From: Rhodobacter sp. 24-YEA-8
Lineage (GTDB): Bacteria > Pseudomonadota > Alphaproteobacteria > Rhodobacterales > Rhodobacteraceae
Assembly (NCBI RefSeq): GCF_900105075.1
Contig: NZ_FNSK01000001.1
Span: 1,129,001-1,193,000 of the forward strand
DNA length: 64,000 bases
Direction of reading: 5' to 3'
Both the position numbers and the translations under genes were made by a program. Numbering within the stretch: the stretch's first letter is position 1; every line of letters begins with the position of its first letter. The notes under the pieces are model-generated. The model did no database searches, was not told where the DNA came from, and saw nothing but the letters and a program-made list of their open reading frames with translations. Below, piece by piece: positions 5,078-27,150 of the stretch.

Positions 5078-5141
5078 CAACGGCTCCGCAGAAGGGTGCG
5101 GGGGTTCTGCATGCGGAGCCGGTGTTTGACAAGCGGGGGGC

Positions 5142-6038
5142 TCAGCCCTTTACCGCCGGGATGCGGCTTCCCGCCGGGACTGAAACATCGCCGTGAAGAA
5201 CGAGGCCAGAGGCCGCCATTTCCTCGGCCAGCCACAAAGCCAGTGCCACCGGGTCGCGGGTCTGCGGCCCGTCGACCGCATCGAGCACCAGTTTCGACGG
5301 CGCCCAGACGACGGATCTGCCGCGTTTGATGGCCCAGTCGATCTCGGTGCGCGAGGAGACGACCACGCAGCGCGGATCGCGCGCGGCCAGCACCCAGGCG
5401 TTTTGCTCGATGGCCAGCAGATCGACGCGGCGCTGCGTCGGGCGGTGGCCGGTCTGCGGGCGCGCCATATCGGGCAGGCCGACACAAAAGACTGCGGGCT
5501 GGCCCGAAGACAGCACCCCGTCGATCCGGGAAGTCAGGTCAGGCGCATGGATAGTCGCATTGTCAAAGTAAACGACCAGCGGATGCAGCGTGTCGTCGCC
5601 CGCCCGCACCGGCACTTCGGCGCGTGAGCGCACGATCTCGACCCCAAGCGCATAGGGGCCGACATCGAGCTTTTCGATCCGGATAAAGGCGCGCATCGCC
5701 TGGGGTTCTGCAAGGAGCCGCTCGGCCAGGTGTTCGGCGAGGGTTTCCAGAAGGTTCAGGCGCTCGGTCGCGAGTTCAGTCGCGATGGATTCGGTGATCC
5801 GGTCATAGGACAGGATCCGGTCGACATCATCTTCCAAGGGCTGCGGTGTCGGGCGCACCTCGATCACGATATTGAAACGAAGCCGTTGTTTATGGCCGCG
5901 TTCCTTCTGGAAAGCGCCGATATCGGCCTCGACAACATGGTCGCGCAGGCTGATCCGGTCACGCGGATCGGCACTGGCCGAGGCCTCGGCACGGGCTTCG
6001 GGATGGCCGAAGGCGAGGGCGCTGTCGCTGGTGGTCAT
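5142..6038 (-). CDS. folB: Dihydroneopterin aldolase with extra C-terminal domain
   Basis: Cleaves dihydroneopterin to hydroxymethyl-dihydropterin and glycolaldehyde, the step two places before FolP, whose gene follows 64 bp downstream. The FolB domain occupies about residues 28-145 (ISLRDHVVEADIGAFQKERG, then RIEKLDVGPYALGVEIVRS). The protein has 298 residues, whereas a classic FolB has about 120. The last 150 residues form a separate predicted alpha/beta region (for example VFCVGLPDMARP and SGLVLHGDVSVP) whose function I do not know. The enzyme call is firm for the first half only. Confidence 0.88.
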   Translation of the reverse strand: MTTSDSALAFGHPEARAEASASADPRDRISLRDHVVEADIGAFQKERGHKQRLRFNIVIEVRPTPQPLEDDVDRILSYDRITESIATELATERLNLLETLAEHLAERLLAEPQAMRAFIRIEKLDVGPYALGVEIVRSRAEVPVRAGDDTLHPLVVYFDNATIHAPDLTSRIDGVLSSGQPAVFCVGLPDMARPQTGHRPTQRRVDLLAIEQNAWVLAARDPRCVVVSSRTEIDWAIKRGRSVVWAPSKLVLDAVDGPQTRDPVALALWLAEEMAASGLVLHGDVSVPAGSRIPAVKG

Positions 6039-6205
6039 GATGGGCGGCCTCTTTCGGCTGGTCTGGCGGCGGCGGGATGTGCCGGTATTGCAAATCCCTA
6101 GCAGCCCGTGCCGCCGATCCCAAGCCCTTTACCGACAGGAAAAGCTTTTGCCCCGACCGGACCGGAAATCGCCGGACCGGGTCGGGGCAGCTGTCTGTCT
6201 TTGCC

Positions 6206-7207
6206 TCAGCCCCGGACGCCGGGTTGCCGGTAGAAGAGATGCGAGCCGATGGCCGTGGTCCGGGCGAAGCGCTTCGACCAGGAGGGGCTCACGCCGCGGG
6301 TGTGGAAATGGGTCGCGCCCTCGGTCAGGCTGCGTGGCGCGCCCGACAGCATGACAGAGGCAATGCGGCCAGCGATTTCGCGCGAATAGCCATCGCGCAT
6401 CTGGGTCGAACTGCCATTGCAGGTATAAGAGAACTGGCAGCTGCCGCCGCCGGCCTGGCGCACCACACCGCAGACCGAGGCGGGGTAGAGACCGCTGTCG
6501 CGCCGGTTCAGGATCACTTCGGCCACGGCGAACTGACCCTGGAGGCTTTCGCCGCGCGATTCGAAATAGATGGCTTCGGTCAGGCATTGCCATTCGCGCC
6601 CGCCCTGTTCCAGCGGCTGCGACCTGAGCCAGGCGGTGTCGTAGCGGATGTCGGGCCTGACAGGTCCGAGAGCCGGAGCAATGGCGGCCGTTTTCACTGC
6701 GCCACCCCGGATTGTTGTCCTTTTGATCACGCGCCGGATCTTGCGGCCCTCGGGCGTGTCGACCATGGTTTCCGAGACCACTTCCTCGATCACCCGCAGA
6801 CTGCCCGTCTCGGTGGCTCTGACCACGGTATGTGGAGCATCGTCCTCTGCGGCGGCGTCGGGGCTGACCGAGGCGGTCCTGGTGTCTGCCTCGGTGCCCG
6901 CGTCATTATCCGCACCGGGACGGATCACTTTCGCGGTGGTTCTTTTCGTCACAACCTTGCTGCCGGTTTCTGCCGCGCTGGTTTTGGTTGTGGTCCTGGG
7001 CTGGCCAGCCGACTGGCCGGAAAACTCTTTCAGTCGTGACTTCTCGCTGCCGAGAAGCTGCCCCATCTCTTCAGCGATGGTCAGGCGTGGTTTGTTCATG
7101 TCACTGCGGGTGACATCTGCCTCGGCCGCCATCGGAGCGGCCAGTTGGGTGAGGGCGACGGTGGCGGTCACGGTGACCGCTGCCAGCACATTCCCTGAGC
7201 GTTTCAT
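6206..7207 (-). CDS. SleB-family cell wall hydrolase
   Basis: A 333-residue exported protein. A hydrophobic N-terminus (residues 5-30, ending AAEA) is followed by a long Thr/Ala/Asp-rich linker (about 60-180) and a C-terminal hydrolase_2 (SleB/CwlJ-like) domain from about 205. That domain starts REWQCLTEAIYFESRGE, with the presumed catalytic glutamate among E211, E216 and E220, and continues AEVILNRRD and THFHTRGV. Family members cleave peptidoglycan glycan strands. In a non-sporulating alphaproteobacterium a role in wall turnover is likely. The start has AGGA nine bases upstream. Confidence 0.85.
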   Translation of the reverse strand: MKRSGNVLAAVTVTATVALTQLAAPMAAEADVTRSDMNKPRLTIAEEMGQLLGSEKSRLKEFSGQSAGQPRTTTKTSAAETGSKVVTKRTTAKVIRPGADNDAGTEADTRTASVSPDAAAEDDAPHTVVRATETGSLRVIEEVVSETMVDTPEGRKIRRVIKRTTIRGGAVKTAAIAPALGPVRPDIRYDTAWLRSQPLEQGGREWQCLTEAIYFESRGESLQGQFAVAEVILNRRDSGLYPASVCGVVRQAGGGSCQFSYTCNGSSTQMRDGYSREIAGRIASVMLSGAPRSLTEGATHFHTRGVSPSWSKRFARTTAIGSHLFYRQPGVRG

Positions 7208-7456
7208 AGTCGGGTTCCTGCTCTGTTACCCCAGGGCCTGGTTTTCCAGACACCGTGGGCACCAAAAACGCAGCTTTGGCCAAAACTGTGACCAAAGCCG
7301 TCAACGAGCGGGGTGATTAAGCGAATCGCAGACCGTCGGTCCAGTATTGTTGCGAATTGGTCACAAGATATTCGTGAGCGTCGGCGGAATAATGCCGAAA
7401 ATGCGTTTCGAATTTATTAACTTTGCACGGCAACCACATGATATTGTGGTTCCATT
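7208..7456. other. Intergenic region upstream of the wall hydrolase
   Basis: About 250 bp, more AT-rich than its surroundings between 7320 and 7450. It probably holds the promoter of the minus-strand hydrolase and the 3' end of the dikinase transcript. I see no convincing hairpin terminator or gene. Confidence 0.4.
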
Positions 7457-10012
7457 TCACTTATCCACATGGTCCCGAAGCGCCAGATGGGCAGCCGCAA
7501 GACGTGCCATGGGCACCCGGTAAGGGCTGCAAGACACGTAATCGAATCCCGCCAGACGGCAAAAAGCGATGGAAAGCGGGTCGCCGCCATGTTCGCCGCA
7601 GATCGAAAGTTTCAGCTCCTGGCGGGTTTCCCGCCCGCGTGCGGCGCCAATCAGCAAAAGCTCGCCGACCCCGTCCTGATCAAGAATGTGGAACGGGTCT
7701 TCCGGGAAGACACCCTGCTGCACATAGGTGTTCATGAATCGCCCGGCATCATCGCGCGAGAGACCATAGGTCATCTGTGTGAGGTCATTTGTGCCGAACG
7801 AAAGGAAGCTCACATGCTGCGCGATCTCGCCGGCGCGCAGACAGGCGCGGGGGGTTTCGACCATGACGCCGAGCCGGTAATCGAAATCGGCTTTTGCACG
7901 GCTGCGCACGGCGGCGGCGACCGCGTCGATCCGGGTGCGAATCAGCTCGACCTCGCGCGCGGCCGAGACCAGCGGGATCATCACTTCGGGCACCACCACC
8001 GCACCGCGCTTCGCGCTCTCTATTGTGGCCTCGAAAATCGCCTGCGCCTGCATGTCGTAGATTTCCGGCAGCACGACGCCGAGGCGGACCCCGCGCATGC
8101 CCAGCATCGGGTTCACCTCGCGCAGGGCCTCGGCGCGGCGGGTGACCTCGGAAAGCGGACGGTCCAGCGCTTCGGCCAGCTCGCGCAACCCCTCGCGCGT
8201 GGCGGGCAGGAATTCGTGCAAGGGCGGGTCGAAGAGGCGGATACAGACCGGCAGACCCTGCATGAGGTCAAAAAGTTGAAGGAAATCCTCGCGCTGCATC
8301 GGCAAAAGCCGCGACAGCGCCGAGGCCCGGTCGGCAGAGGTATCGGCGAAGATCATTTCACGCATGACGGTGAAGCGGTCTTCTTCGAAGAACATATGTT
8401 CGGTGCGGCAGAGCCCGATGCCTTCGGCGCTGAACTTGCGCGCGGTGGCGGCGTCAGAGGGCGTGTCGGCATTGGCACGCACGCCGATGTCGCGGAACTC
8501 ATCCGCCCAGGTCAGCAGCCGGTGAAAGCTGTCATCCAGTGCAGGCGGCAGCATTTCGGCAGCGCCCGCCAGGGCTTCGCCGCGCGATCCGTCGATGGTG
8601 ATGACATCGCCCTCGCGGAAGATGCGGCCATCGCGGGAGGTCAGCTTCTTGTCCTTGCCATCAAGGCGCAGATCAGAGGCACCGACCACGGCAGGCAGGC
8701 CAAGGCCGCGCGCGATCACGGCGGCGTGGCTGGTCATGCCACCGCGCTCCGTCAGTACGGCGACCGCCGAATGCATGCCGCGAATGTCTTCGGGGGCCGT
8801 CTCACGCCGCACAAGAATACACTCTTCGCCGCGCGCGGCTGAAGCCTGGGCTGCTTCGGAGGTGAAAACCAGTTTGCCCGTGGCGGCGCCCGGCGAGGCG
8901 GCGATGCCGTTCGAAATCACATCGCGCAGCCCGCGCGGATCGACCTGGTGGTGCAAAAGCTCGGACAGGGCACGGGGTTCGACCCGCAACACCGCTTCGG
9001 ATTGCGGGATCACCCCGTCCTCGGCCAGCGTCACCGCGATTTTCAGCCCGGCCCGGACGGAACGCGCCACGCGGATCGCGTCAAGCACCGCGAGCCTGCC
9101 GTCTTCGACGGTGAATTCGATCTGCATTTCCTCGCGCAGTTTCACCCGGCAGACCGCGCCCATCCGGATCAGGTCCTGCATGATTTCCGGGGCTTCCTCT
9201 TCCAGCGAGGGGCCGCGAGGGTCACGGGTAAGATAAAGCGCCTCGCGTGCGGCCAGCGCGTCACGGCCCTGGCTTTGCCCGAGATAGCGCCCGGTGATGC
9301 GGCTCAGCCCGGTGACAGAATCGACGAACTGGATCACGCCAGAGCCGGAAATGCCCTGACCGATTCCCTGTGCCATTTGCTGCACGACAAGGCCAAGCGC
9401 GGCATCTTCCGGCGCGCCTTTGGCCGAACGCAGAAGGCGGGCCGAGGTGCCTTCCCAGGCCCGCGCCATCGAGCGCAGCACTTCGGAAAGCTGGCGCGCC
9501 GGGTCTTCCGGGAAGGGCTCGTCGGTCTCATATTCATAAAGCCGGCGCAGCTCGCGCAGCGCGTCGGGGCCAGGGGCTACATCCTCGAACATATCGGGAT
9601 CAAGGCGCGCGACATGGATCGCATAGCTCTGGATGAACCGACACCAAAGTGCGTCTGCGGCCTCGCGGCCATGGCTTTCCGCCAGCGCCGCATGGCGGGC
9701 CGCGTTCAGCCCGATATTGAGGATGGTGGCCGGGCCGCCCCAGTCGGGATTGGCGGGAGAGGCGCGGACCGAGACAAGGGGGCCCGCGGTCTGGTCGGTG
9801 CCGAAATGCGCAAGGATGGCAGTGGCATCGACCGGCTGCCCCTGGGCGAGGGCGCGGATGGTGGCCGCAGGCAGGGCGACCGATTGCGGCACCGGCAGGT
9901 CAAGACGAACGAGGCGCTGCAGGCATTTCGCCTTCCAGCCATGGGCCTCGGTTGTGATGGGCGCCGATTGGGTGATTTCCGAAAAGGCGGTGATCTTCGC
10001 TTGTTTCTGCAC
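7457..10012 (-). CDS. ppdK: Pyruvate phosphate dikinase-like PEP-utilizing enzyme
   Basis: 851 residues. Canonical PPDK makes PEP from pyruvate, ATP and phosphate. The swivelling phosphohistidine domain (GGMTSHAAVIARGLGLPAVV) and the C-terminal PEP barrel (SFGTNDLTQMTYGLSRDD, SICGEHGGDP, SCSPYRVPMARLAAA) are very well conserved. The ATP half is not. Where normal PPDK has a PGMMDTVLNLG-type segment, this protein reads NPDWGGPATILNIGLN, and the usual GEFL-type segment is replaced. The start is a GTG at 10012 with AGGAG seven bases upstream. It follows glyS on the same strand. It may be a diverged paralogue rather than a standard dikinase. Confidence 0.8.
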   Translation of the reverse strand: MQKQAKITAFSEITQSAPITTEAHGWKAKCLQRLVRLDLPVPQSVALPAATIRALAQGQPVDATAILAHFGTDQTAGPLVSVRASPANPDWGGPATILNIGLNAARHAALAESHGREAADALWCRFIQSYAIHVARLDPDMFEDVAPGPDALRELRRLYEYETDEPFPEDPARQLSEVLRSMARAWEGTSARLLRSAKGAPEDAALGLVVQQMAQGIGQGISGSGVIQFVDSVTGLSRITGRYLGQSQGRDALAAREALYLTRDPRGPSLEEEAPEIMQDLIRMGAVCRVKLREEMQIEFTVEDGRLAVLDAIRVARSVRAGLKIAVTLAEDGVIPQSEAVLRVEPRALSELLHHQVDPRGLRDVISNGIAASPGAATGKLVFTSEAAQASAARGEECILVRRETAPEDIRGMHSAVAVLTERGGMTSHAAVIARGLGLPAVVGASDLRLDGKDKKLTSRDGRIFREGDVITIDGSRGEALAGAAEMLPPALDDSFHRLLTWADEFRDIGVRANADTPSDAATARKFSAEGIGLCRTEHMFFEEDRFTVMREMIFADTSADRASALSRLLPMQREDFLQLFDLMQGLPVCIRLFDPPLHEFLPATREGLRELAEALDRPLSEVTRRAEALREVNPMLGMRGVRLGVVLPEIYDMQAQAIFEATIESAKRGAVVVPEVMIPLVSAAREVELIRTRIDAVAAAVRSRAKADFDYRLGVMVETPRACLRAGEIAQHVSFLSFGTNDLTQMTYGLSRDDAGRFMNTYVQQGVFPEDPFHILDQDGVGELLLIGAARGRETRQELKLSICGEHGGDPLSIAFCRLAGFDYVSCSPYRVPMARLAAAHLALRDHVDK

Positions 10013-16870: not shown

Positions 16871-17350
16871 TCACCCCCTGCGGGCGGCATCAATCGTCGC
16901 GACGTCGATCTTCTGCATGGTCATCATCGCCGCAAAGGCGCGCGCGGCTTCTGCGCCACCTGCGGCCATCGCCTCGGTCAATGTGCGCGGCGTGATCTGC
17001 CAGGACACGCCCCAGCGGTCCTTGCACCAGCCGCATTCGCTTTCCTGGCCGCCATTGCCGACAATCGCAGTCCAGTACCGGTCGGTTTCCTCCTGATCCT
17101 CGGTGGCGATCTGGAATGAGAATGCCTCGTCCTGGCGGAAAACCGGTCCGCCATTCAGCCCGATACAGGGGATCCCGGCCACGGTGAACTGAACGGTCAG
17201 CACGTCGCCCTTTTTCCCCGAGGGATAATCAGCAGGCGCGCGATGGACGGCTTCGACCCGGCTGTCGGGGAAGACCGAGGCGTAGAAATTTGCCGCCGCC
17301 TCTGCGTCTTTGTCAAACCACAGACAGATGGTGTTTTTTGCAATCGACAT
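16871..17350 (-). CDS. VOC superfamily protein (PhnB / 3-demethylubiquinone type)
   Basis: 159 residues starting at 17350 with GGAGGAAAA upstream. The fold is the vicinal oxygen chelate type (ICLWFDKDAEAAANFYASVF, LNGGPVFRQDEAFSFQI, GWCKDRWGVSWQITP). Databases often name this group after ubiquinone methyltransferase, but the resemblance is only to a domain family and no methyltransferase motif is visible. The biochemical role is unknown. It is a single gene, convergent with pssA. Confidence 0.8.
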   Translation of the reverse strand: MSIAKNTICLWFDKDAEAAANFYASVFPDSRVEAVHRAPADYPSGKKGDVLTVQFTVAGIPCIGLNGGPVFRQDEAFSFQIATEDQEETDRYWTAIVGNGGQESECGWCKDRWGVSWQITPRTLTEAMAAGGAEAARAFAAMMTMQKIDVATIDAARRG

Positions 17351-17479
17351 TGGATTTTCCTCCCTCAGCGCATAACGCCGTGCGCCGGGCAGGGTTCCCG
17401 GGGGGCAGGGGAAACCCGCTAGCCGCCTCTGACCGCCTCTGGCCGGAACACGGCCGGAGGCAGCGGGGACATCGATATG

Positions 17480-17515
17480 AAAGCCCCCGGAGCCTTTCGG
17501 TCCGGGGGCTTTTTC
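17480..17515. terminator. Strong hairpin terminator downstream of pepF
   Basis: A 12-bp perfect stem (17480-17491 with 17501-17512) closes a 9-nt loop directly after the pepF stop on the minus strand. The T run is longer on the plus strand, so it may also shield the other direction. Confidence 0.8.
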
Positions 17516-19366
17516 TTATTCCATCGCTTCCAGCTCGTCGATGAAGCCTGCGATCATCGAAAGGCCCTTGTCCCAGAATTTCGGGTCCGAGGCATCAAGG
17601 CCAAATGGCGCCAGCAGCTCTTTGTGATGTTTCGAGCCGCCCGCTTTCAGCATGTCGAAATACTTGTCCTGGAAGCCAGGCAGCCCGTCAGCATAGACCG
17701 CGTAAAGCGCGTTCACGAGGCCATCGCCAAAGGCATAGGCGTAGACATAGAAGGGCGAGTGGATGAAATGCGGGATATAGGCCCAGAAGGTCTGATAGCC
17801 ATCCATGAAGTCAAAGACCGGGCCAAGGCTTTCGGCCTGGACCGACATCCAGAGCGCGTTGATATCGTCGGGCGTCAGCTCGCCCTCCTGGCGGGCGGCG
17901 TGAAGCTTGCATTCGAAATCGTAAAACGCGATCTGGCGCACGACCGTGTTGATCATGTCCTCGACCTTGCCCGCCAGAAGCACCTTGCGCTCGGCCGGGG
18001 TTTTTGCCTCGTCCAGAAGCTTGCGGAAGGTCAGCATCTCGCCGAAGACCGATGCGGTTTCCGCAAGCGTCAGAGGCGTCGAAGACAACAGCTCGCCCTG
18101 GCCTGCCGCCAGCACCTGATGGACGCCATGGCCCAGCTCATGCGCCAGCGTCATCACATCGCGCGGTTTGCCCAGATAATTGAGCATGACATAGGGATGG
18201 ACAGTGGTGACGGTCGGATGGGCAAAAGCCCCGGGCGCCTTGCCGGGCTTCACGCCGGCATCAATCCAGCCTTTGGTGAAGAAGGGTTTCGCGAGTTCCG
18301 CCATGCGCGGATCAAACGCGCTGTAAGCCTCGGTCACCTGGCGCTCGGCGGTCGCCCAGTCGATGGTCTTCGGCGCCTCGACCGGCAGCGGCGCATTCCG
18401 GTCCCAGACCTGGAGCCGGTCCAGCCCCATCCATTTCGCCTTCAGCGCATAATAGCGGTGCGAAAGCTTCGGATAGGCGGCGACAACGGCATTCCTGAGC
18501 GCCTCGACCACTTCGGGTTCGACATGGTTCGAGAGGTGCCGGCCGGTCTGCGGCGTCGGCATCCTGCGCCAGCGATCCTCGATTTCCTTTTCCTTCGCGA
18601 GCGTATTGGTGATGCGGGCGAAAAGCTTGACGTTCTTATCAAACACCACCGCCAGCGCCCGTGATGCCGCCTCGCGTTTGGTACGGTCGGTATCGGTCAG
18701 AAGGTTCAGCGTCGCCTCAAGGTTCAGCTCCTCCTCTTCGCCCTCGACCGTGAACATCAGCCCGGCAGTGGTTTCGTCAAAGAGCTTGTTCCAGGCCGAG
18801 GCGCCGACCACCGACTGGTCATGGAGGAATTTCTCCATCTCATCGGAAAGCTGGTGCGGCCGCATCGCGCGCATGCGCTCAAAAACCGGGTTGTAGCGGG
18901 CGAGATCGGCATTTTCGGCAAGCAGGGCGCTGAGATGCGCATCTTCCAGCCGGTTGAATTCAAGGCTGAAGAATACGAGCGCAGTGGTCGCCACGGTCAC
19001 CGCATCCTGGGCGTCTGACATGAACTTGGCGCGTTCCGAGTCCATGGTGTTCTGGTAATAGCGCAGCCCCGCGTAAGACATCAGCCGCCCGGCAGTGACG
19101 TCAATCGCCTCGTATTCCTGCACACATTGCAAAAGCGCCGCTGCCTCAAGCGAGGCGAGCTTACCCTCATAGCGCGCGGCAAAATCAGTGCAGGCTTTGC
19201 TCAGCCATTCCATATCGCGCTCAAATTCCGGCGCATCCGGCGCAGGGTAGAGATCGGTCAGATCCCATTCCGGCAGGTCACCAAAACCCTTGCCAGACGC
19301 CGTGGCACCGGAATTTGCATCGAATACAGGGCGGGGGAGGCTGCGGGTCGGAAGGCTGCGGATCAT
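17516..19366 (-). CDS. pepF: Oligoendopeptidase F (M3B metallopeptidase)
   Basis: A cytoplasmic zinc peptidase that trims oligopeptides, 616 residues from the ATG at 19366. The frame extends about 78 codons upstream but that part lacks homology. The zinc motif LAHELGHGVHQ places HELGH at residues 409-413. Other family segments are LPEWDLTDLYPAPDAPEFE near the N-terminus, PYVMLNYLGKPRDVMTLAHE and SPFYVYAYAFGDGLVNALYA. It diverges from the Anbu operon across a short shared region, which makes a functional link to peptide turnover possible but unproven. Confidence 0.93.
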   Translation of the reverse strand: MIRSLPTRSLPRPVFDANSGATASGKGFGDLPEWDLTDLYPAPDAPEFERDMEWLSKACTDFAARYEGKLASLEAAALLQCVQEYEAIDVTAGRLMSYAGLRYYQNTMDSERAKFMSDAQDAVTVATTALVFFSLEFNRLEDAHLSALLAENADLARYNPVFERMRAMRPHQLSDEMEKFLHDQSVVGASAWNKLFDETTAGLMFTVEGEEEELNLEATLNLLTDTDRTKREAASRALAVVFDKNVKLFARITNTLAKEKEIEDRWRRMPTPQTGRHLSNHVEPEVVEALRNAVVAAYPKLSHRYYALKAKWMGLDRLQVWDRNAPLPVEAPKTIDWATAERQVTEAYSAFDPRMAELAKPFFTKGWIDAGVKPGKAPGAFAHPTVTTVHPYVMLNYLGKPRDVMTLAHELGHGVHQVLAAGQGELLSSTPLTLAETASVFGEMLTFRKLLDEAKTPAERKVLLAGKVEDMINTVVRQIAFYDFECKLHAARQEGELTPDDINALWMSVQAESLGPVFDFMDGYQTFWAYIPHFIHSPFYVYAYAFGDGLVNALYAVYADGLPGFQDKYFDMLKAGGSKHHKELLAPFGLDASDPKFWDKGLSMIAGFIDELEAME

Positions 19367-19499
19367 CGGAACTACCTGTGCTGTTTTGCCCCTGGCGGGG
19401 CCTTGCCTTCCATCTAGGCGCGAGGGGGGGCGGGCTGCAAGGGCAAGGGTCGATCTGGCGCCTGCCCGGGGGGGCTGAACCGGGGGAGGAACGACGAAA

Positions 19500-19637
19500 G
19501 TGGCCGGGCTCTTTGCCCGCGTGACCCCGATCCTGCTCGTCTGGGTCTGTGACCTGGTAGCAGGTATGCTTGCCTGGCTTCTGGTGACTTTTGATATCAC
19601 CCGGTCACATGTCCGCCTCGATCAGGGCGAGGATTGA
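19500..19637 (+). CDS. Possible small membrane protein (45 aa)
   Basis: A GTG-started frame of 45 codons with GGGGGAGGAA upstream. Its translation contains one hydrophobic stretch (PILLVWVCDLVAGMLAWLL) and a polar tail (RSHVRLDQGED). It lies between divergent pepF and the ATP-grasp gene. The evidence is only the ribosome site and the membrane-like composition. It could equally be untranslated leader of the Anbu operon. Confidence 0.3.
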   Translation: MAGLFARVTPILLVWVCDLVAGMLAWLLVTFDITRSHVRLDQGED

Positions 19638-19800
19638 CGGAACCGCCGGCGGGATGGGGCGTTTGCGTTGGCGATGCCCCTTTTTTGGGCGGTTGCATCT
19701 GTTGCAGTCAGTCATTCGTGCAGTTTTGACCCGTTCAGGCCTTTACGACGCGGAAACGGCGCGCTTGACTGAATGGGCCATTAAGCGAGTGGAGCCAGAT

Positions 19801-21216
19801 ATGGGCGTATTCTTCGACGAGATGAACGGATCCGGCGGGGGCACCCGCGCCCCCTATGCGAGGCTCGAAGAATGGCTGGCGACCATGCCAAAAGAACTCC
19901 GGAGCCTGAAACAGGCCGAGGCGGAGGCACTGTTTCGCCGCATCGGCATCACTTTCGCGGTCTATGGAGAGGGCGGCGACCCGGACCGGCTGATCCCCTT
20001 TGACATGTTCCCGCGCGTGTTTTCCGGCGCGGAATGGGCCAGGCTGGATCGCGGCGTGAAGCAACGCGCCAAAGCGCTGAACATGTTCCTCGTCGATGTT
20101 TACGGCCGGGGCGAGATCATCCGGGCGGGACGGGTGCCGGCCAATCTCGTCTATCAGAACGCCGCCTATGAGAAGGCCGCCGTGGGCTTTGTGCCGCCGA
20201 AAGGCGTCTATTCCCATATCGTCGGCATCGACCTCGTGCGTACCGGGCCGGAAGAGTTTTTTGTGCTGGAGGACAATTGCCGCACGCCGTCAGGCGTGTC
20301 TTACATGCTGGAAAACCGCGAGATCATGATGCGCATGTTCCCGGGTCTTTTTCGCGAGAACCGCATCGAGCCGATTGATTCCTATGCGGAAATCCTGCGC
20401 CGCACACTGGCCTCGGTGGCGCCCGCAAAGTGTCAGGGTGACCCGAAGGTCGTGATCCTGACGCCGGGGCATTTCAACTCGGCCTATTACGAACATTCCT
20501 TCCTTGCCGATCTGATGGGGGTTGAACTGGTCGAGGGCCAGGATCTCTTTGTCGATGGCGAATTCGTCTATGCCCGCACGACCGAAGGCCCGAAACGCGT
20601 CGATGTGATCTACCGCCGGATCGATGACGCCTTCCTCGATCCGCTGTGTTTCCGCCCGGATTCGATGCTGGGTGTGCCGGGTCTGATGGATGTCTATCGC
20701 TCGGGTGGGGTGTCTATCTGTTCGGCCCCTGGGGCAGGGGTCGCGGATGACAAGGCGATCTATACCTATGTGCCCGAGATGATCCGCTTTTATCTGGGCG
20801 AAGAGCCGATCCTGAGCAATGTCCCCACCTGGAAATGCGCCGGGCGCGACGATCTGAAATATGTGCTCGACAACCTTTCCGAGCTGGTCGTGAAAGAGGT
20901 GCATGGCTCGGGCGGCTATGGGATGCTGGTCGGCCCCACGGCGAGCAAGGCCGAGATTGAGGCGTTCCGCGCGCAGCTGGTGGCCAACCCATCAAATTAC
21001 ATCGCACAGCCCACGCTGGCGCTGTCGACCGTGCCGACCTTTGTCGATGAAGGCGTGGCGCCGCGCCATGTCGACCTGCGCCCCTATTGCCTTGTGGGCG
21101 AGCGGATCGAGCTCGTGAAGGGCGCGCTGACCCGGGTGGCTTTGCGCGAGGGCAGCCTCGTCGTGAATTCGTCGCAGGGCGGTGGCGTCAAGGACACCTG
21201 GGTATTGGCGGAGTAA
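19801..21216 (+). CDS. Circularly permuted ATP-grasp protein (DUF404/DUF407)
   Basis: 471 residues from the ATG at 19801, which has GTGGAG upstream. The open frame begins earlier but conserved sequence starts at MGVFFDEMNGSGGGTRAPYA. Motifs of this amidoligase-like ATP-grasp group are VDVIYRRIDD, APGAGVADDKAIYTYVPEM and LVVKEVHGSGGYGMLVGP. Enzymes of this fold usually join a carboxylate to an amine using ATP, and this family is predicted to form peptide bonds on an unknown substrate. It is the first gene of the four-gene Anbu operon and ends 6 bp before the alpha-E gene. Confidence 0.9.
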   Translation: MGVFFDEMNGSGGGTRAPYARLEEWLATMPKELRSLKQAEAEALFRRIGITFAVYGEGGDPDRLIPFDMFPRVFSGAEWARLDRGVKQRAKALNMFLVDVYGRGEIIRAGRVPANLVYQNAAYEKAAVGFVPPKGVYSHIVGIDLVRTGPEEFFVLEDNCRTPSGVSYMLENREIMMRMFPGLFRENRIEPIDSYAEILRRTLASVAPAKCQGDPKVVILTPGHFNSAYYEHSFLADLMGVELVEGQDLFVDGEFVYARTTEGPKRVDVIYRRIDDAFLDPLCFRPDSMLGVPGLMDVYRSGGVSICSAPGAGVADDKAIYTYVPEMIRFYLGEEPILSNVPTWKCAGRDDLKYVLDNLSELVVKEVHGSGGYGMLVGPTASKAEIEAFRAQLVANPSNYIAQPTLALSTVPTFVDEGVAPRHVDLRPYCLVGERIELVKGALTRVALREGSLVVNSSQGGGVKDTWVLAE

Positions 21217-21222
21217 CCGGAT

Positions 21223-22173
21223 ATGCTTTCAAGAACCGCCAATAATCTTTACTGGATCGCACGTTACATGGAGCGCGCCGATACCGTCGCGCGTCTGCTG
21301 GATGTGGGAAGCCGCATCTCGCTGATCCCCTCGGAACATGGCTATCGCAGCGAATGGGACAGCCTGTTGCAGGCCAGTGGCATGGCTGAGGGCTTTACCG
21401 CCAAATATGGCGACCCGGTGCAGCGCAATCTGGAATCCTGGCTGTTTTTCGACCGCGACAACCCGTCCTCCGTTGCCAGTTGCCTGACGGCTGCGCGGGA
21501 AAATGCCCGGATCGTGCGCACGGCCATGACCGCCCAGGTCTGGGATGCGCTGAACATGGCCTTTCAGGACCTGCGCCAGCTTGAGCGGCAGGAACGCTCG
21601 ACCCTCGACCAATCCACGCTCACGGATTGGGTCACGCGGCAATCAGCGCTGGTGCGCGGTGCGATCGATGCCAATCTACTGCGCGATGATGGCTATAACT
21701 TCCTGAATCTGGGATATTATCTGGAACGCGCCGACAATTCAGCCCGGCTTCTTGACGTGAAATATTACGTGCTGCTGCCGCGACTGGATTTCGTGGGATC
21801 GGGGCTCGACAATTACCAGTGGTCGACGCTGTTGCGGGCCATGGGCGCGCAGCGTGCCTTTCACTGGGCTTATGGCGGCGAGATCACCGCCGGCAAGATC
21901 GCCGATTTCCTGATCCTGAACCGTCAAAGCCCGCGCGCCCTGATCACCTGTATCGCGGGCGCCGAAAACCATCTGACGCGGCTGGCCAAGGCCTATGGCA
22001 GAGAGGGCCTGGCCCAGCTGCGCGCGCGCGCCATGCTGGGCGAGCTGGAAGAGGAAACCGTCGAACGTATTTTCGAGGAAGGCCTGCACGAATATCTCTC
22101 GCGGTTCATCGGGTCTGTGGCAGAGCTTGGGTCTGTCATCCATGAGGTCTATCTGGGCGGAGAACTCAGCTGA
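21223..22173 (+). CDS. Alpha-E domain protein (DUF403)
   Basis: A 316-residue, almost wholly alpha-helical protein. It opens MLSRTANNLYWIARYMERAD and has repeated helix segments such as FLNLGYYLERADNSARLLDV. Family members always travel with the permuted ATP-grasp protein and are thought to be its partner or a second subunit. No catalytic motif is evident. It sits 6 bp after the ATP-grasp stop, and its own stop overlaps the next start by one base (TGATG), showing tight translational coupling. Confidence 0.9.
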   Translation: MLSRTANNLYWIARYMERADTVARLLDVGSRISLIPSEHGYRSEWDSLLQASGMAEGFTAKYGDPVQRNLESWLFFDRDNPSSVASCLTAARENARIVRTAMTAQVWDALNMAFQDLRQLERQERSTLDQSTLTDWVTRQSALVRGAIDANLLRDDGYNFLNLGYYLERADNSARLLDVKYYVLLPRLDFVGSGLDNYQWSTLLRAMGAQRAFHWAYGGEITAGKIADFLILNRQSPRALITCIAGAENHLTRLAKAYGREGLAQLRARAMLGELEEETVERIFEEGLHEYLSRFIGSVAELGSVIHEVYLGGELS

Positions 22174-23000
22174 TGCGCCTGAGCGTCAATCATATCACCC
22201 GCTACAGCTATGACCGCCCGGTCAGGGGGCTTGTGCAAAGCCACCGGCTGACGCCTTCGGTGTTTCAGGGCCAGAAGGTGATTTCATGGGAGATCTCTGT
22301 CGAAGCCGGCGATGCGGCGGCGGTCAGGGGCGCCGAATTCACCGATGGCGCCGGCGACCGGATCCAGGGCTGGAGCATCGCCGGGCCGCTGACCGAAGTG
22401 GCGGTGACAGTGCGTGGCACGGTCGAGACCACTGACACTGCCGGGATGCTGAAAGGCTGCCGCGAGGTGATCAACCCCTGCGCCTATAAGCGCGGGACCG
22501 CATTGACGGCGGGATCCGTGGCGCTTTCGGATCTGGCGGAAAGCGTATCGGATGCCGGGGGGGCTCTCGCGCTGGCGCATGGCCTGTCGGCGGCGGTGAC
22601 CGGGGCCATCGCCTACCATCCTGGCGTGACCGATGCCCATAGCTCGGCATCAGAAGCGCTCGCCCTGGGCGAGGGGGTCTGTCAGGACCATGCCCATGCG
22701 CTGATCGCGCTGGCGCGGTTGCGGGATCTGCCGGCGCGCTATGTGTCGGGCTATCTTTTCGCCGATGCCTCGGGTGCCGCGCATGAGGCCGCCCATGCCT
22801 GGGCCGAGATCCATGTGCCGGGTCTGGGCTGGATCGGGTTTGACCCGGCGAATGCCTGTTGCCCGGATGAACGCTATATCCGCCTTGCCTCTGGCTTTGA
22901 CGCCCGCGATGCCGCCCCCATCCGCGGCGTCGCCCGCGGCGGCCAGGCGGGCGAAGAAGCGATGGATGTCACGGTTGCGGTCCTTTCCTCCGGTCAGTAA
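22173..23000 (+). CDS. Transglutaminase-like cysteine peptidase-fold protein
   Basis: 275 residues. An N-terminal beta-rich region (RLSVNHITRYSYDRPVRGLV) precedes the transglutaminase core with an intact triad: C170 in GEGVCQDHAHALIALA, H208 in AAHAWAEIHVPG and D224 in WIGFDPANAC. In bacteria this fold more often acts as a peptidase or amide-bond transferase than as a crosslinker. Located between the alpha-E and Anbu genes, it could trim or transfer the product of the ATP-grasp enzyme. No signal peptide is visible, so it is probably cytoplasmic. Confidence 0.9.
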   Translation: MRLSVNHITRYSYDRPVRGLVQSHRLTPSVFQGQKVISWEISVEAGDAAAVRGAEFTDGAGDRIQGWSIAGPLTEVAVTVRGTVETTDTAGMLKGCREVINPCAYKRGTALTAGSVALSDLAESVSDAGGALALAHGLSAAVTGAIAYHPGVTDAHSSASEALALGEGVCQDHAHALIALARLRDLPARYVSGYLFADASGAAHEAAHAWAEIHVPGLGWIGFDPANACCPDERYIRLASGFDARDAAPIRGVARGGQAGEEAMDVTVAVLSSGQ

Positions 23001-23033
23001 TGTCCTGCGGGTGAATAAATTTTCCGGTGAGAA

Positions 23034-23756
23034 ATGACCTATTGCGTCGGCCTTCTGCTCAATCAGGGTATGGTATGCCTGTCCGATACCCGCACCAATG
23101 CGGGGCTCGACAATATTTCCACCTATCGCAAGATGTTCACCTTCGAGGCTCCGGGCGAGCGGGTGATTGTGATCATGACCGCGGGATCGCTTTCCGTCAC
23201 GCAGACCACCATCGCGCGGCTGCATGAGGCGATGGATGAGCCTGATGCCACGCCGGAAACGTCTATCCTGCTGGCGCCGACCATGCTGAAAGTGGCGCAG
23301 CTGGTGGGGAATACGCTGGCCTCAGTGCGGCGCGAGATCGATGAGAAACTGTCGATGAGCCAGGGCGCCTCGGCCTCGATGATCGTCGCGGGGCAAAGGA
23401 AGGGCGGCGGTATGCGCATGTTCCTGATCTATCCCGAGGGGAATTTCATCGAAGCGACCGACGACACGCCCTTCCTCCAGATCGGCGAGCATAAATACGG
23501 CAAGCCGATTCTTGACCGCGTGGTCCGGCCCGAAACCGGCTTGCAGGATGCGCAAAAGGCGGTGCTGTTGTCGATGGATTCGACCCTGCGCTCGAACCTC
23601 TCGGTGGGGATGCCACTGGATCTGGCGGTGATCGAAAAAGACGCGCTGCGGGTGACGTCGCGGCGCCGGATCGAGGCCGGGGATGAAGGCTTTCGCGCGA
23701 TGAGCGAGGCCTGGTCCAACGCGCTGCGCGATGGTTTTAGCCGGATCGAAGTCTGA
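23034..23756 (+). CDS. Anbu, proteasome-type self-compartmentalising peptidase
   Basis: 240 residues of the Ntn-hydrolase proteasome family, the ancestral beta-subunit branch called Anbu. The sequence begins Met-Thr, so removal of Met exposes the nucleophile Thr1. The partner residues are present as D18 in CLSDTRTNAG and K33 in TYRKMFTFE (numbered with Met), matching Asp17 and Lys33 of proteasomes. HslV pairs with the HslU ATPase. No ATPase gene lies here, which is usual for Anbu. It is the last gene of the operon, 33 bp after the transglutaminase-like gene. Confidence 0.92.
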   Translation: MTYCVGLLLNQGMVCLSDTRTNAGLDNISTYRKMFTFEAPGERVIVIMTAGSLSVTQTTIARLHEAMDEPDATPETSILLAPTMLKVAQLVGNTLASVRREIDEKLSMSQGASASMIVAGQRKGGGMRMFLIYPEGNFIEATDDTPFLQIGEHKYGKPILDRVVRPETGLQDAQKAVLLSMDSTLRSNLSVGMPLDLAVIEKDALRVTSRRRIEAGDEGFRAMSEAWSNALRDGFSRIEV

Positions 23757-23883
23757 CCGGTTCGGATGACGTCGCGGAAGTCCTGGCGGAAATCTGTCAT
23801 GCTTTTGCGTAAATCCTGTGTCCGGGGCTTCACACTGGCGTCGCAGATGCCTAGCTTTCTCGAAACAGCAGGAGAAACGACTC

Positions 23884-24201
23884 ATGCCAAAGCTCGTCCG
23901 CCTTTATATTCAATCCGTTGCTATCGGGTTCGGATTGTCCGCAGGTTTCGTCGCAGCCCTGCTTTGGACCAATGTTGCAGCTGTCGGCGCGCTGGTTGAC
24001 GGAGCGGGGGCGATCGGTTGGGTGGCTGTGGCAATGCTGGTCGTGTTTTTCGGCGTTCTCTTTTCGAGTGTGCAATTCGCGATCCGCGTCATGATGCTGG
24101 CCGAAGGGGATGACACGCCGCGCGGGGGCCTGCGTCAGCAGATGATCCCAATTCGGGTCGAAGCGCGGGCTGAGCAGCAAAAGCGCCAGCCCCGCCGCTG
24201 A
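23884..24201 (+). CDS. Small two-pass membrane protein of unknown function
   Basis: 105 residues from an ATG with AGGAGAA seven bases upstream. Two hydrophobic segments (SVAIGFGLSAGFVAALLW and IGWVAVAMLVVFFGVLFSSV) lead into a basic, polar tail ending QKRQPRR. It lies 127 bp after Anbu on the same strand and before a terminator, so it could be read through from that operon. Nothing else links it to Anbu. The last codons and the stop fall inside a tandem 21-bp repeat. Confidence 0.7.
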   Translation: MPKLVRLYIQSVAIGFGLSAGFVAALLWTNVAAVGALVDGAGAIGWVAVAMLVVFFGVLFSSVQFAIRVMMLAEGDDTPRGGLRQQMIPIRVEARAEQQKRQPRR

Positions 24202-24227
24202 TCCTTCCAGCCCCGCCGCTGATCCTT
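24186..24227 (+). repeat. 21-bp perfect tandem duplication spanning a stop codon
   Basis: The unit CCAGCCCCGCCGCTGATCCTT occurs twice in a row without mismatch. The first copy holds the TGA of the small membrane protein gene at 24199-24201. The identical copies imply a recent slip or duplication. Confidence 0.9.
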
Positions 24228-24244
24228 AAGGTATCACATTAAAG

Positions 24245-24277
24245 AAACCCGCCGCGTCACCGCAGGCGGGTTTTTCT
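24245..24277 (+). terminator. Rho-independent terminator
   Basis: A 9-bp stem (24245-24253 with 24265-24273) and an 11-nt loop, followed by TTTTTCTTT on the plus strand. It would end the transcript carrying the small membrane protein and possibly the Anbu operon. Confidence 0.85.
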
Positions 24278-24580
24278 TTGGCCGAAGCGGGTCATCGACA
24301 AGGAAGAGCTGGGACAGAGAAGAGGTGGCGGGCCCGCAGCGGCCGTGGGTGGTCTCGATATCCCGAGAGCCAGAGGTCTCAGGTGGGAACCAGGTATCCG
24401 GACCAGGATCCGGGCAGAGCCAGCCCCCATTCATATGCTTATCGGCCACTGGGTTATGGACCCCTCACGCGAAGAGCAGCACCCGCCGCCTTCATATCTA
24501 GGGCCGCCGGGGCTGCAGTACAAGACCGCCGCTGACCCCTGTCGGGTATTGCTTGCAGCGGGCCGGAAGACTGGACAAAT
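24278..24580. other. Intergenic region before mmcB
   Basis: About 300 bp between a terminator and the SOS-like box of mmcB. Short frames are present but none has a ribosome site or recognisable product. Nothing else is apparent. Confidence 0.4.
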
Positions 24581-24595
24581 GTTTACTGTTTGTTC
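24581..24595 (+). promoter_or_regulatory. Candidate LexA (SOS) box, GTTT-N7-GTTC
   Basis: GTTTACTGTTTGTTC differs by one base from the alphaproteobacterial SOS consensus GTTC-N7-GTTC. It ends 11 bp before the mmcB start. mmcB is a known damage-inducible gene in Caulobacter, so LexA control is likely. Binding here is inference. Confidence 0.55.
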
Positions 24596-24606
24596 ATGTT
24601 GGGGTG

Positions 24607-25092
24607 ATGGATGAATCGCTGCATCGCCTGGCCCTGGCTGAAATCCCTGAAGACACCCGTGATCTCTTGCCGATGCAGGCGGGCCAGCGCATCGCGCGCG
24701 GGGTTGCGCGGCTTTTGTGCAGCCACGGATTTGCGCCGGTTACGGAAATGCCGCTGGCAGGCAAGCTGCGCGCGGATGTGATGGCGATCGGGCCAAAGGG
24801 CGAGGTCTGGATCGTCGAATGCAAATCCTGCCGCGCGGATTTTCGGGCGGATCGCAAATGGCAGGGCTATACCGCCTGGTGCGACCGTTTTTTCTGGGCG
24901 GTCGGACCTGATTTCCCGCAAGAGATCCTGCCTGAAAACGACGGGCTGATCCTCGCAGATGCGTTCGGAGGCGAGATCATCCGCCTCGCTGATGAGACGC
25001 CGCTGGCGCCCGCCCGGCGCAAAGTGGTCAGCCGCGATTTCGCCCGCTATGCCGCCCTGCGGCTGCTCGCTTTGCGCGATCCGGCCCCCTGA
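24607..25092 (+). CDS. mmcB: MmcB family DNA repair protein
   Basis: 161 residues with a PD-(D/E)XK nuclease-type core: D57 in KLRADVMAIG, then E71 and K73 in VWIVECKSCRADF. This matches MmcB, a protein of the mitomycin C response in alphaproteobacteria. I take the ATG at 24607, since the upstream extension crosses the SOS-like box. Its precise activity is not well defined, but the active-site residues suggest a nuclease or DNA binder in damage repair. The gene is alone and convergent with the radical SAM gene. Confidence 0.85.
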   Translation: MDESLHRLALAEIPEDTRDLLPMQAGQRIARGVARLLCSHGFAPVTEMPLAGKLRADVMAIGPKGEVWIVECKSCRADFRADRKWQGYTAWCDRFFWAVGPDFPQEILPENDGLILADAFGGEIIRLADETPLAPARRKVVSRDFARYAALRLLALRDPAP

Positions 25093-25102
25093 GGCGCAAC
25101 GC

Positions 25103-25147
25103 AAATTTCTTAAAAGAAATTTATCCGGTTTCTGTCACAGAAACCGG
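25103..25147. repeat. Twin perfect hairpins between convergent genes
   Basis: Two adjacent dyads. The first pairs 25103-25111 with 25114-25122 around two bases. The second pairs CCGGTTTCTG at 25125-25134 with 25138-25147 around TCA. They lie between the convergent mmcB and radical SAM genes and probably terminate both. The TTTCTG...CAGAAA core recurs in the twin hairpin at 29549-29594. Confidence 0.75.
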
Positions 25148-25164
25148 TCTTCTGGCTCGTCGGA

Positions 25165-26280
25165 TCAGAACAGGCCGAGCTGGTCGCCTCTGGCAAAAGG
25201 CACCCGGAAGAGATCACAGCGCAGCGCCGGCTGCGGCGCGTCCAGGCCCAGTTTCGCGGCCGCGCGGCGGAAACGGTCGGCGATCAGCCGCGACCAGAGA
25301 CCTTCGCCCTTCATCCTTTTGCCGAATGTGGCGTCATAATCCCTGCCGCCATGCATCTCGCGCACCCGGTTCAGCACCTTGGTCGCGCGCCCGGGCTCGG
25401 CCCGTTCCAGCCAGTCGCGAAACAGCCCAGCCACCTCCTGCGTCAGCCGGAGAGAGATCCAGCTTGCGCTGGTCGCGCCGGCCTCCTGCGCGGCTTCCAG
25501 CAGCGGCTCGATCTCGTGATCGGTCAGGCCAGGGATCACCGGCGCCAGCATCAGCCGCACCGGGATGCCGGCCTCGCTCAGCCGCCTTATGATCTGAAGC
25601 CTGCGGGCAGGCGCCGGTGCGCGGGGTTCCATCTTGCGCGCAAGCGACTGATCCAGCGTGGTAATCGAGATGCCCACCCGCACAAGACCCTCCGCCGCCA
25701 TCGGCGCGAGAAGGTCGATATCGCGTTCGATCAGCGTGCCGCGGGTGGTGATCGCCAGCGGGTGGCGAAAGGCTGAAAGCACCTCGACCACCTCACGCGT
25801 CACCCGGTATTGCGCCTCGCCCGGCTGCCAGGGATCGGTATTGGTGCCAAGCGCGATGGGCGCGACCTTGTAGCTTCTGGCGCGAAGTTCACGGTCCAGC
25901 ACCGCGCCGATCCCCGGTTTCGCGATGAGCTTCGTCTCGAAATCCAGCCCCGGCGAGAGGTTGAGATAGGCATGGGTCGGCCGCGCGAAACAATAGATGC
26001 AGCCATGCTCACAGCCTCGCCAGGGATTGACCGAGCGGTCAAAGGGCAGATCGGGCGAGGCATTGCGGCTGATCGCGGATTTCGGCATTTCGCGGCTGAT
26101 TTCCGTCTGCACCAGCGCGTCATCTTCGACCATATCCCAGCCGTCGGACAGCGTCTCGCGGTGATGCGGCTCATAGCGGCCGGCCTCATTCAGACCGGCA
26201 CCGCGTGCCCTGACGCGCTGTCCCGGCAAAAGACCGGGCAGCGGTGTCGTCACAGGGCTTGAAGGACGGGGCGCTGGCAC
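25165..26280 (-). CDS. PA0069-family radical SAM protein
   Basis: 371 residues with a GTG start at 26280, AGGGAA upstream. The iron-sulfur motif is C90-x3-C94-x2-C97 in RGCEHGCIYCFARPTH, followed by GTNTDPWQP and the LVRVGISITTLD segment, all typical of the PA0069 group related to spore photoproduct lyase. The substrate is unknown. The last five residues, QLGLF, match the QLxLF pentapeptide that binds the DNA polymerase sliding clamp, which hints at work on DNA. It stands next to mmcB, a repair gene. Confidence 0.87.
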   Translation of the reverse strand: MPAPRPSSPVTTPLPGLLPGQRVRARGAGLNEAGRYEPHHRETLSDGWDMVEDDALVQTEISREMPKSAISRNASPDLPFDRSVNPWRGCEHGCIYCFARPTHAYLNLSPGLDFETKLIAKPGIGAVLDRELRARSYKVAPIALGTNTDPWQPGEAQYRVTREVVEVLSAFRHPLAITTRGTLIERDIDLLAPMAAEGLVRVGISITTLDQSLARKMEPRAPAPARRLQIIRRLSEAGIPVRLMLAPVIPGLTDHEIEPLLEAAQEAGATSASWISLRLTQEVAGLFRDWLERAEPGRATKVLNRVREMHGGRDYDATFGKRMKGEGLWSRLIADRFRRAAAKLGLDAPQPALRCDLFRVPFARGDQLGLF

Positions 26281-26451
26281 GGTGGGATTCCCTGAAAAAA
26301 GTTAAGAACAAAAATAGAACATGCGCCGGCAAAGAAAAGGGGGAAACGTGCGGAAGTCGGCTTTCTCTTCGCTAGTGTCGCAAACATCTGAGTGGAAGTG
26401 TCGTTTTCAGCCCATTGAAGGGGGAACGAACTCTCTCCGCTGGAGCGCCCC

Positions 26452-27150
26452 ATGGCCGATGACGACGAAATCATCCTCTCGGAACTTCCCGATGACGAGC
26501 TTGTCCTGCAGATGCATGACGATCTCTATGACGGGCTGAAGGACGAGATCGAAGAGGGGACGCGCCTCCTGCTGGACCGCGGCTGGACGCCTTATGACGT
26601 GCTCACCCAGGCGCTGGTGGCCGGCATGAAGATCGTCGGCGATGATTTCCGTGACGGGATCCTGTTCGTGCCCGAAGTTCTGCTTTCGGCAAATGCGATG
26701 AAGTCGGGGATGACCATCCTCAAGCCGTTGCTGGCGGAAACCGGCGCGCCGCGCATGGGCAAGATGGTGATCGGCACCGTCAAAGGTGACATTCACGACA
26801 TCGGCAAGAACCTTGTCGCGATGATGATGGAAGGCGCCGGCTTCGAAGTTGTGGATCTGGGCATTAACAACTCAGTGGAGAAATATCTTGAGGCGCTTGG
26901 CACGGAAACGCCTGATATCCTTGGGATGTCGGCGCTTCTGACCACCACCATGCCCTATATGAAAGTGGTGATTGATACGCTGAAGGAAAAAGGCATGCGC
27001 GAGGACTATATCGTGCTTGTGGGCGGGGCGCCGCTGAATGAGGAATTCGGCCGGGCGATCGGTGCGGATGCCTATTGCCGCGACGCGGCGGTGGCGGTCG
27101 AGACCGCGAAACAGCTGGTCGCGCGGCGGCACAATCAGCTGAGCGCCTGA
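26452..27150 (+). CDS. Corrinoid (B12-binding) methyl-carrier protein
   Basis: 232 residues. A helical cap domain (about 15-95) precedes a Rossmann-like cobalamin-binding domain with the signature D113-x-H115-x2-G118 in GTVKGDIHDIGKN, then VLVGGAPLNEEFGRAIGADAY. H115 would ligate cobalt. Such stand-alone proteins pass a methyl group between a donor methyltransferase and an acceptor. In Rhodobacterales one likely role is the cobalamin module of a split methionine synthase, and methylamine or betaine demethylation is the alternative. DUF1638 follows about 340 bp downstream. Confidence 0.9.
   Translation: MADDDEIILSELPDDELVLQMHDDLYDGLKDEIEEGTRLLLDRGWTPYDVLTQALVAGMKIVGDDFRDGILFVPEVLLSANAMKSGMTILKPLLAETGAPRMGKMVIGTVKGDIHDIGKNLVAMMMEGAGFEVVDLGINNSVEKYLEALGTETPDILGMSALLTTTMPYMKVVIDTLKEKGMREDYIVLVGGAPLNEEFGRAIGADAYCRDAAVAVETAKQLVARRHNQLSA

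Follow-up and report, generated by a model that had tools for sequence, protein, structure and literature searches.

Lock-washer or helical multimers are characteristic of Anbu, an Ntn-hydrolase that has both the PF00227 family and a catalytic Thr1 in common with HslV and the 20S proteasome beta subunit. Anbu has been proposed as a proteasome ancestor or intermediate and its crystal structures have been solved, and in the portions of the published accounts available to us neither a substrate nor an activity is given for it. In the published tests no peptidase activity was found, fluorogenic peptides and casein being left uncut, and a pull-down with Anbu revealed no specific interaction with the other proteins of its operon, as far as these portions report. 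Proteasome inhibitors bind to Thr1 (PMC5666114, in part), and the only activity reported for the Yersinia bercovieri ATP-grasp protein, again in the text available, is the release of phosphate from ATP. The Anbu operon described in Pseudomonas, Yersinia and others consists of four genes, for an ATP-grasp protein, an alpha-E protein, a transglutaminase-like protein and Anbu. Here we analyzed the Anbu operon in a 64,000-nucleotide stretch of Rhodobacter sp. 24-YEA-8 (hereafter the window; C1:1129001-1193000 of a 5.0-Mb genome), in which the Anbu gene lies at C1:1152034.

Organization of the Anbu operon

The operon of the window is a real, complete and ordinary copy of the published bacterial Anbu operon. 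It occupies positions 19801-23756, with all four genes on the plus strand and in the published order:

19801..21216, plus strand: circularly permuted ATP-grasp protein (CP_ATPgrasp_2; PF14403, 540 bits; PDB 3n6x)
21223..22173, plus strand: alpha-E protein (PF04168, 294 bits)
22173..23000, plus strand: transglutaminase-like cysteine hydrolase (PF01841, Transglut_core, 68 bits; PF08379, Bact_transglu_N, 60 bits)
23034..23756, plus strand: Anbu-1 Ntn-hydrolase (PF00227, Proteasome, 29 bits; PDB Anbu entries)

The families and gene order given in the initial annotation were recovered, and its statement that these families are already known to occur together is correct. Its description of stops and starts as overlapping or nearly touching is borne out by intergenic distances of +6, -1 and +33 bases: the last base of the ATP-grasp stop is 21216 and the first of alpha-E is 21223, the alpha-E stop and the transglutaminase ATG share the base at 22173, and the Anbu ATG lies 33 bases past the transglutaminase stop. 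A longer ATP-grasp frame, from a TTG at 19591 upstream of 19801, is possible; the position corresponding to 19801 is an ATG in three named Pseudogemmobacter relatives and a GTG in many other relatives. The closest named genome is that of Pseudogemmobacter bohemicus (96% in Anbu), and the closest named protein comes from Paracoccus sp. IB05 (97%).

The catalytic residues are intact, as had been claimed. In Anbu, the codons of Thr1, Asp17 and Lys32 are located at 23037-23039, 23085-23087 and 23130-23132, respectively, Thr1 stands directly after the start Met, and the three residues are identical in all 61 aligned sequences (the window and 60 loci of the class). The lysine had been annotated as Lys33; the residue is correct, but counted from the mature Thr1 it is Lys32, Lys33 being the homologous number, and the part of the Y. 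bercovieri Anbu paper that we consulted numbers it Lys32(33). Alignments to solved Anbu structures span almost the whole protein (about 240 residues), with E-values of 7e-78 for 5loy (a designed Anbu) and 4e-74 for 5nyj; the latter match covers residues 1-239, and those to 5nyf and 5loy begin at residue 2. The transglutaminase-like triad, mapped on alignments, consists of Cys170 (codon 22680-22682), His208 (22794-22796) and Asp224 (22842-22844). At five of the loci compared (L097, L119, L159, L161 and L176), the catalytic Cys is absent from the transglutaminase-like proteins, whereas the His and Asp are retained.

Nothing essential distinguishes this operon from the known ones, which have the same genes, order and active-site residues in the published descriptions available to us; the copy in the window faces a divergent pepF gene, as do many in close relatives. 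More distant systems differ clearly. The same genome encodes a complete HslV at C1:2786905, and its partner HslU is encoded two frames from it, whereas none of the ten proteins scanned around Anbu, from 16871 to 27147, belongs to an AAA+ family; moreover, the published Anbu assemblies are unlike those of HslV and the 20S proteasome. In GspSA, the bifunctional glutathionylspermidine synthetase/amidase, the two domains are part of one protein and the hydrolase belongs to another family, whereas the window has separate open reading frames (ORFs) with no such fusion, and neither alpha-E nor Anbu has a counterpart in GspSA.

ATP-grasp and alpha-E proteins

Residues 5-470 of the ATP-grasp protein match PDB 3n6x with an E-value of 4e-199. 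Its fold is nearest to those of small-peptide carboxylate-amine ligases, namely glutathione synthetase, YgiC, Cp1B and glutathionylspermidine synthetase. For alpha-E, neither a search of solved structures by sequence nor a structural comparison of its model yielded a good or outstanding match. The model is essentially all helical (predicted local distance difference test, pLDDT, 85.7; predicted template modelling score, pTM, 0.86). The two halves of the protein (encoded by about 21223-21678 and 21679-22170) are homologous by hhalign (probability 95.6, E-value 1.1e-8, 81 to 84 columns), the probability being at most 1.2 in ten column-shuffled control runs, and an invariant Glu-Arg is present in each half. 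To judge from this comparison, alpha-E is the product of an internal duplication.

Distribution and gene content in Alphaproteobacteria

Two sets of genomes were compared. The close relatives are the best 80 of 206 Anbu relatives obtained in one search of named genomes. The class survey comprised 289 genomes, with E-value thresholds of 1e-10 for Anbu and 1e-6 for alpha-E; 60 of its 87 Anbu places were fetched, mostly one per genus, of which 11 had one flank of Anbu shorter than 8 kb. Neighbouring genes at the fetched loci were identified by tblastn.

All four genes were present at 74 of the 80 loci of close relatives. Three others are cut by contig ends (L033, L037 and L062), and three lack the other three genes at the Anbu locus: those of Pseudogemmobacter faecipullorum (L010) and one metagenome-assembled genome (L061), both with an intact Anbu and with no alpha-E match in a genome sequence of unstated completeness, and L045, whose genome has alpha-E elsewhere. 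In the class, Anbu was found in 81 genomes and alpha-E in 107, and 78 of the 81 Anbu genomes had some alpha-E. Counting only stand-alone alpha-E, separated by hand from fused forms according to score and the length of the frame (the frames of several "fused" entries are short), 74 genomes had both, 7 only Anbu, 24 only alpha-E and 184 neither; these are raw counts in which related genomes are counted singly.

By score, Anbu fell into Anbu-1 (65 genomes) and a group with much lower scores (16 genomes, one with a partial match), for which we borrowed the name Anbu-2 from the available part of PMC5666114, the group being defined here by score alone. The 48 Anbu-1 loci fetched comprised 27 with the quartet (26, and L104, which has an additional transglutaminase match), 8 without the transglutaminase and 13 with other layouts, among them one with all four genes and one wide gap (L108) and one with Anbu on the other strand (L106). 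All 12 Anbu-2 loci fetched were solitary. By comparison, ATP-grasp immediately precedes alpha-E in 78 of 79 cases, and loci from genomes without Anbu carry the ATP-grasp/alpha-E pair with or without transglutaminase matches. The genome of the window itself has a second cluster (L154:6010-12661), on one strand, made up of a large transglutaminase frame (1122 codons), a fused ATP-grasp/alpha-E frame (814 codons) and a second, small transglutaminase; no Anbu was found in this cluster. Since the pair is nearly always together and Anbu and the transglutaminase vary, we regard the ligase pair as the constant core and the hydrolases as options, so that the question of substrate belongs first to the ATP-grasp protein.

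Outside this class, a full Anbu quartet is annotated on a Klebsiella pneumoniae plasmid typed as conjugative (NZ_CP084831.1, L199).

Association with aminoacyl-tRNA-protein transferase genes

In other Alphaproteobacteria, genes of the N-degron pathway (ATE/Bpt, ClpS-ClpA) are neighbours of a sister ATP-grasp/alpha-E pair and often of Anbu-2 as well. We fetched the alpha-E locus from 13 of the 16 Anbu-2 genomes, and in 12 of them an aminoacyl-tRNA-protein transferase (ATE/Bpt) gene follows alpha-E directly and in the same orientation, at a spacing of -29 to +72 bases. Both ATE domains were recognized by Pfam in nine of the 12, and the other three cluster with these by blastp. The loci span eight family codes, with a single ATE match in every one of the 12 genomes. 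The ATP-grasp/alpha-E/ATE loci are as follows:

L178 and L180-L190: trio, Anbu unlinked (Anbu-2)
L198, Azospirillum brasilense plasmid: trio, with ATP-grasp at 4565-5971, alpha-E at 6001-6930 and ATE at 7052-7762

The same spacing was found by coordinates in a further genome (G135). ATE was absent from the loci of the 80 close relatives and from the 48 class Anbu-1 loci, and among 26 other alpha-E loci used as a control it was near in only one, where it is convergent. In the genome of the window the pathway is unlinked, the single ATE being located at C1:1496258, about 344 kb from Anbu.

No statement of this adjacency was found in our literature search. Plain synteny is a serious rival explanation for it, because MotB and other genes are common to most trio loci and to L198; in L181 and L186, which belong to one genus, the trio is kept without the other tested genes of this block, save for an antisense frame over ATE. 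ClpS occurs in the fetched flank of 7 of the 12 Anbu-2 loci, in all seven with ClpA also nearby, versus none of the 48 Anbu-1 loci. It would be consistent with these data, although we consider it improbable, that the ATP-grasp/alpha-E pair works together with the N-degron pathway of bacteria and that the Anbu-1 operon is the same machine with hydrolases attached instead. The pair would then share its targets, protein or peptide ends, with ATE, and Anbu would process the products. The trio, with the genome's sole N-degron transferase, offers a testable tie to a pathway of known logic, and of the present findings it most deserves further study.

A phasin gene lies near 10 of the 12 Anbu-2 loci (L129-L140), mostly divergent from Anbu-2. 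A phasin gene also adjoins, on the same strand, the solitary Anbu-1 of L117, from another family.

Possible functions of the operon

The substrate of the system, stated to be unknown in the initial annotation, is likewise unknown in the Anbu papers as far as we could consult them, and one more ordinary copy of the operon leaves that question as it was. The kin of the ATP-grasp fold link small peptides or acids with amines, and the nitrogen-limitation data discussed below suggest a growth condition. We tentatively favour, at slightly less than even confidence, a nitrogen-stress pathway of amide ligation and hydrolysis on peptide-like substrates. The ATP-grasp enzyme, with alpha-E as its constant partner, would activate a peptide-like carboxylate with ATP and join it to an amine, a reaction for which glutathione synthetase, YgiC and glutathionylspermidine synthetase serve as models. 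Hydrolysis of amide bonds, in the resulting product or in precursors of it, would fall to the transglutaminase-like cysteine enzyme and to Anbu with its Thr1, and would free or recycle nitrogen or the acceptor. The part of alpha-E and the direction of such a cycle are likewise proposals, as is its use by the species of the window under nitrogen limitation. Our own analysis contributes the gene order, the active-site residues, the kinship of the ATP-grasp fold, and the finding that the pair is constant and the hydrolases vary.

The literature contributes induction by nitrogen limitation in Pseudomonas putida, where PP_2685-2688 are likely under NtrB/NtrC control according to the parts of PMC7801951, PMC8050072 and PMC3325844 that we consulted. 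Excerpts from two further studies describe a Burkholderia cenocepacia cluster with the same domain names, without a named Anbu, as NtrC- and sigma54-dependent (PMC5491218), and an association of the operon domains with urea metabolism in marine metagenomes (PMC3597751).

Several points weigh against this reading. In the data of PMC7801951 available to us, the first column shows Anbu itself (PP_2685) as flat (1.12 fold), and its three operon partners are up in the rpoN mutant as well, with the columns as we read them; such a rise fits poorly with simple sigma54/NtrC control. None of the sigma54/NtrC sites searched for upstream of 74 close relatives exceeded the shuffled background, so that nitrogen control in the genus of the window is not shown. 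The ATP-grasp model has a pLDDT of 76.8, with stretches of low confidence, and kinship of a modelled fold by itself proves no function. In the passages of PMC5666114 at hand, Anbu Thr1 reacts with proteasome inhibitors and the authors favour protein degradation rather than peptide synthesis. The lineage with ATE points to protein targets. Finally, L010 and L061 show that Anbu can be retained in the absence of the pair; these genomes may have lost the other genes recently, and an independent role of Anbu is therefore only weakly supported.

The upstream regions of ATP-grasp in close relatives share an 8-mer, TGCACAAA, found on either strand in 22 of 74, which may be a lineage signal or a regulator site.

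The initial annotation had proposed a tag-and-degrade pathway. This idea is a published hypothesis, for which the Anbu papers cite Iyer 2009 and Valas & Bourne 2008; in our ranking it comes second to amide ligation and hydrolysis under nitrogen stress. In a protein tag-and-degrade or tag-and-edit system, the ATP-grasp/alpha-E pair would tag proteins with an amino acid or peptide, Anbu would degrade or untag them, and the transglutaminase-like protein would edit the links. A gene-context argument to this effect has been published, to go by the sections available, and the ATE gene after the pair in 12 of 13 loci as well as the binding of proteasome inhibitors to Thr1 (PMC5666114, in part) point the same way; but no AAA+ family occurs among the ten proteins scanned, whereas the HslV of this genome has HslU two frames off, the reported Anbu assays gave neither operon partners nor cleavage, and the ATP-grasp fold is akin to small-peptide ligases. 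On balance we regard it as rather unlikely.

That same kinship would suit a ligase that makes a small peptide metabolite (for storage, redox or as an osmolyte) which the hydrolases trim or recycle. The second cluster without Anbu fits this alternative, as does the peptide-synthesis system predicted by Iyer et al., as cited in the part of PMC5666114 consulted. However, no single transporter, carrier or precursor gene keeps a constant position near the 48 Anbu-1 loci, where the commonest clusters are mixed ABC ATPases (11) and short-chain dehydrogenases (7) at scattered distances, and we find this explanation unlikely. Bulk protein turnover in nitrogen starvation by Anbu, whose activity the other genes would supply or regulate, is very unlikely: the induction in P. 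putida (PMC8050072 and PMC3325844, in part) and the solitary Anbu of L010 and L061, with pairwise ratios of non-synonymous to synonymous substitution rates (dN/dS) of 0.10 to 0.20 versus 0.11 to 0.21 for operon pairs, speak for it, but it requires an unfoldase or unfolded substrates and a peptidase activity absent from the published tests that we could consult, PP_2685 is flat in one data set, and Anbu varies while the pair stays.

Neighbouring genes

Two genes flank the operon:

17516..19600, minus strand: pepF-type M3 oligopeptidase (TIGR02290, 631 bits), divergent, judged to lie outside the system
23881..24201, plus strand: small ORF 3' of Anbu, without a Pfam family

That pepF diverges from the operon is correct; its profile match starts at residue 111, which makes the true start and the gap to 19801 uncertain. 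The further suggestion that pepF is a functional partner, to be checked by a survey of Anbu neighbourhoods, did not hold beyond close relatives. The sequence upstream of Anbu extends for 8 kb or more in 67 close relatives. Of these, 48 have a divergent pepF there, always on the minus strand; in 16 it is no more than 300 bases from ATP-grasp (or from Anbu where ATP-grasp is missing), in 4 the distance is 300-1500 bases and in 28 it is larger. In contrast, pepF was near none of the 60 class loci fetched, two of which come from the window's own family, although its family was matched in 190 of the 289 class genomes. The link with pepF thus looks local and looks to reflect inherited gene order. 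A contrary sign comes from a genome without Anbu (L173:10594-14962), where an M3 peptidase, with an open frame of 606 codons, lies about 150 bases upstream of ATP-grasp/alpha-E on the same strand. At L010:7563-8720, the solitary Anbu directly faces pepF.

In 16 of the 80 close relatives, a count that leaves out L002 from the window's own genome, a homologue of the small ORF lies 3' of Anbu; it may be an additional member of the operon, confined to near relatives.

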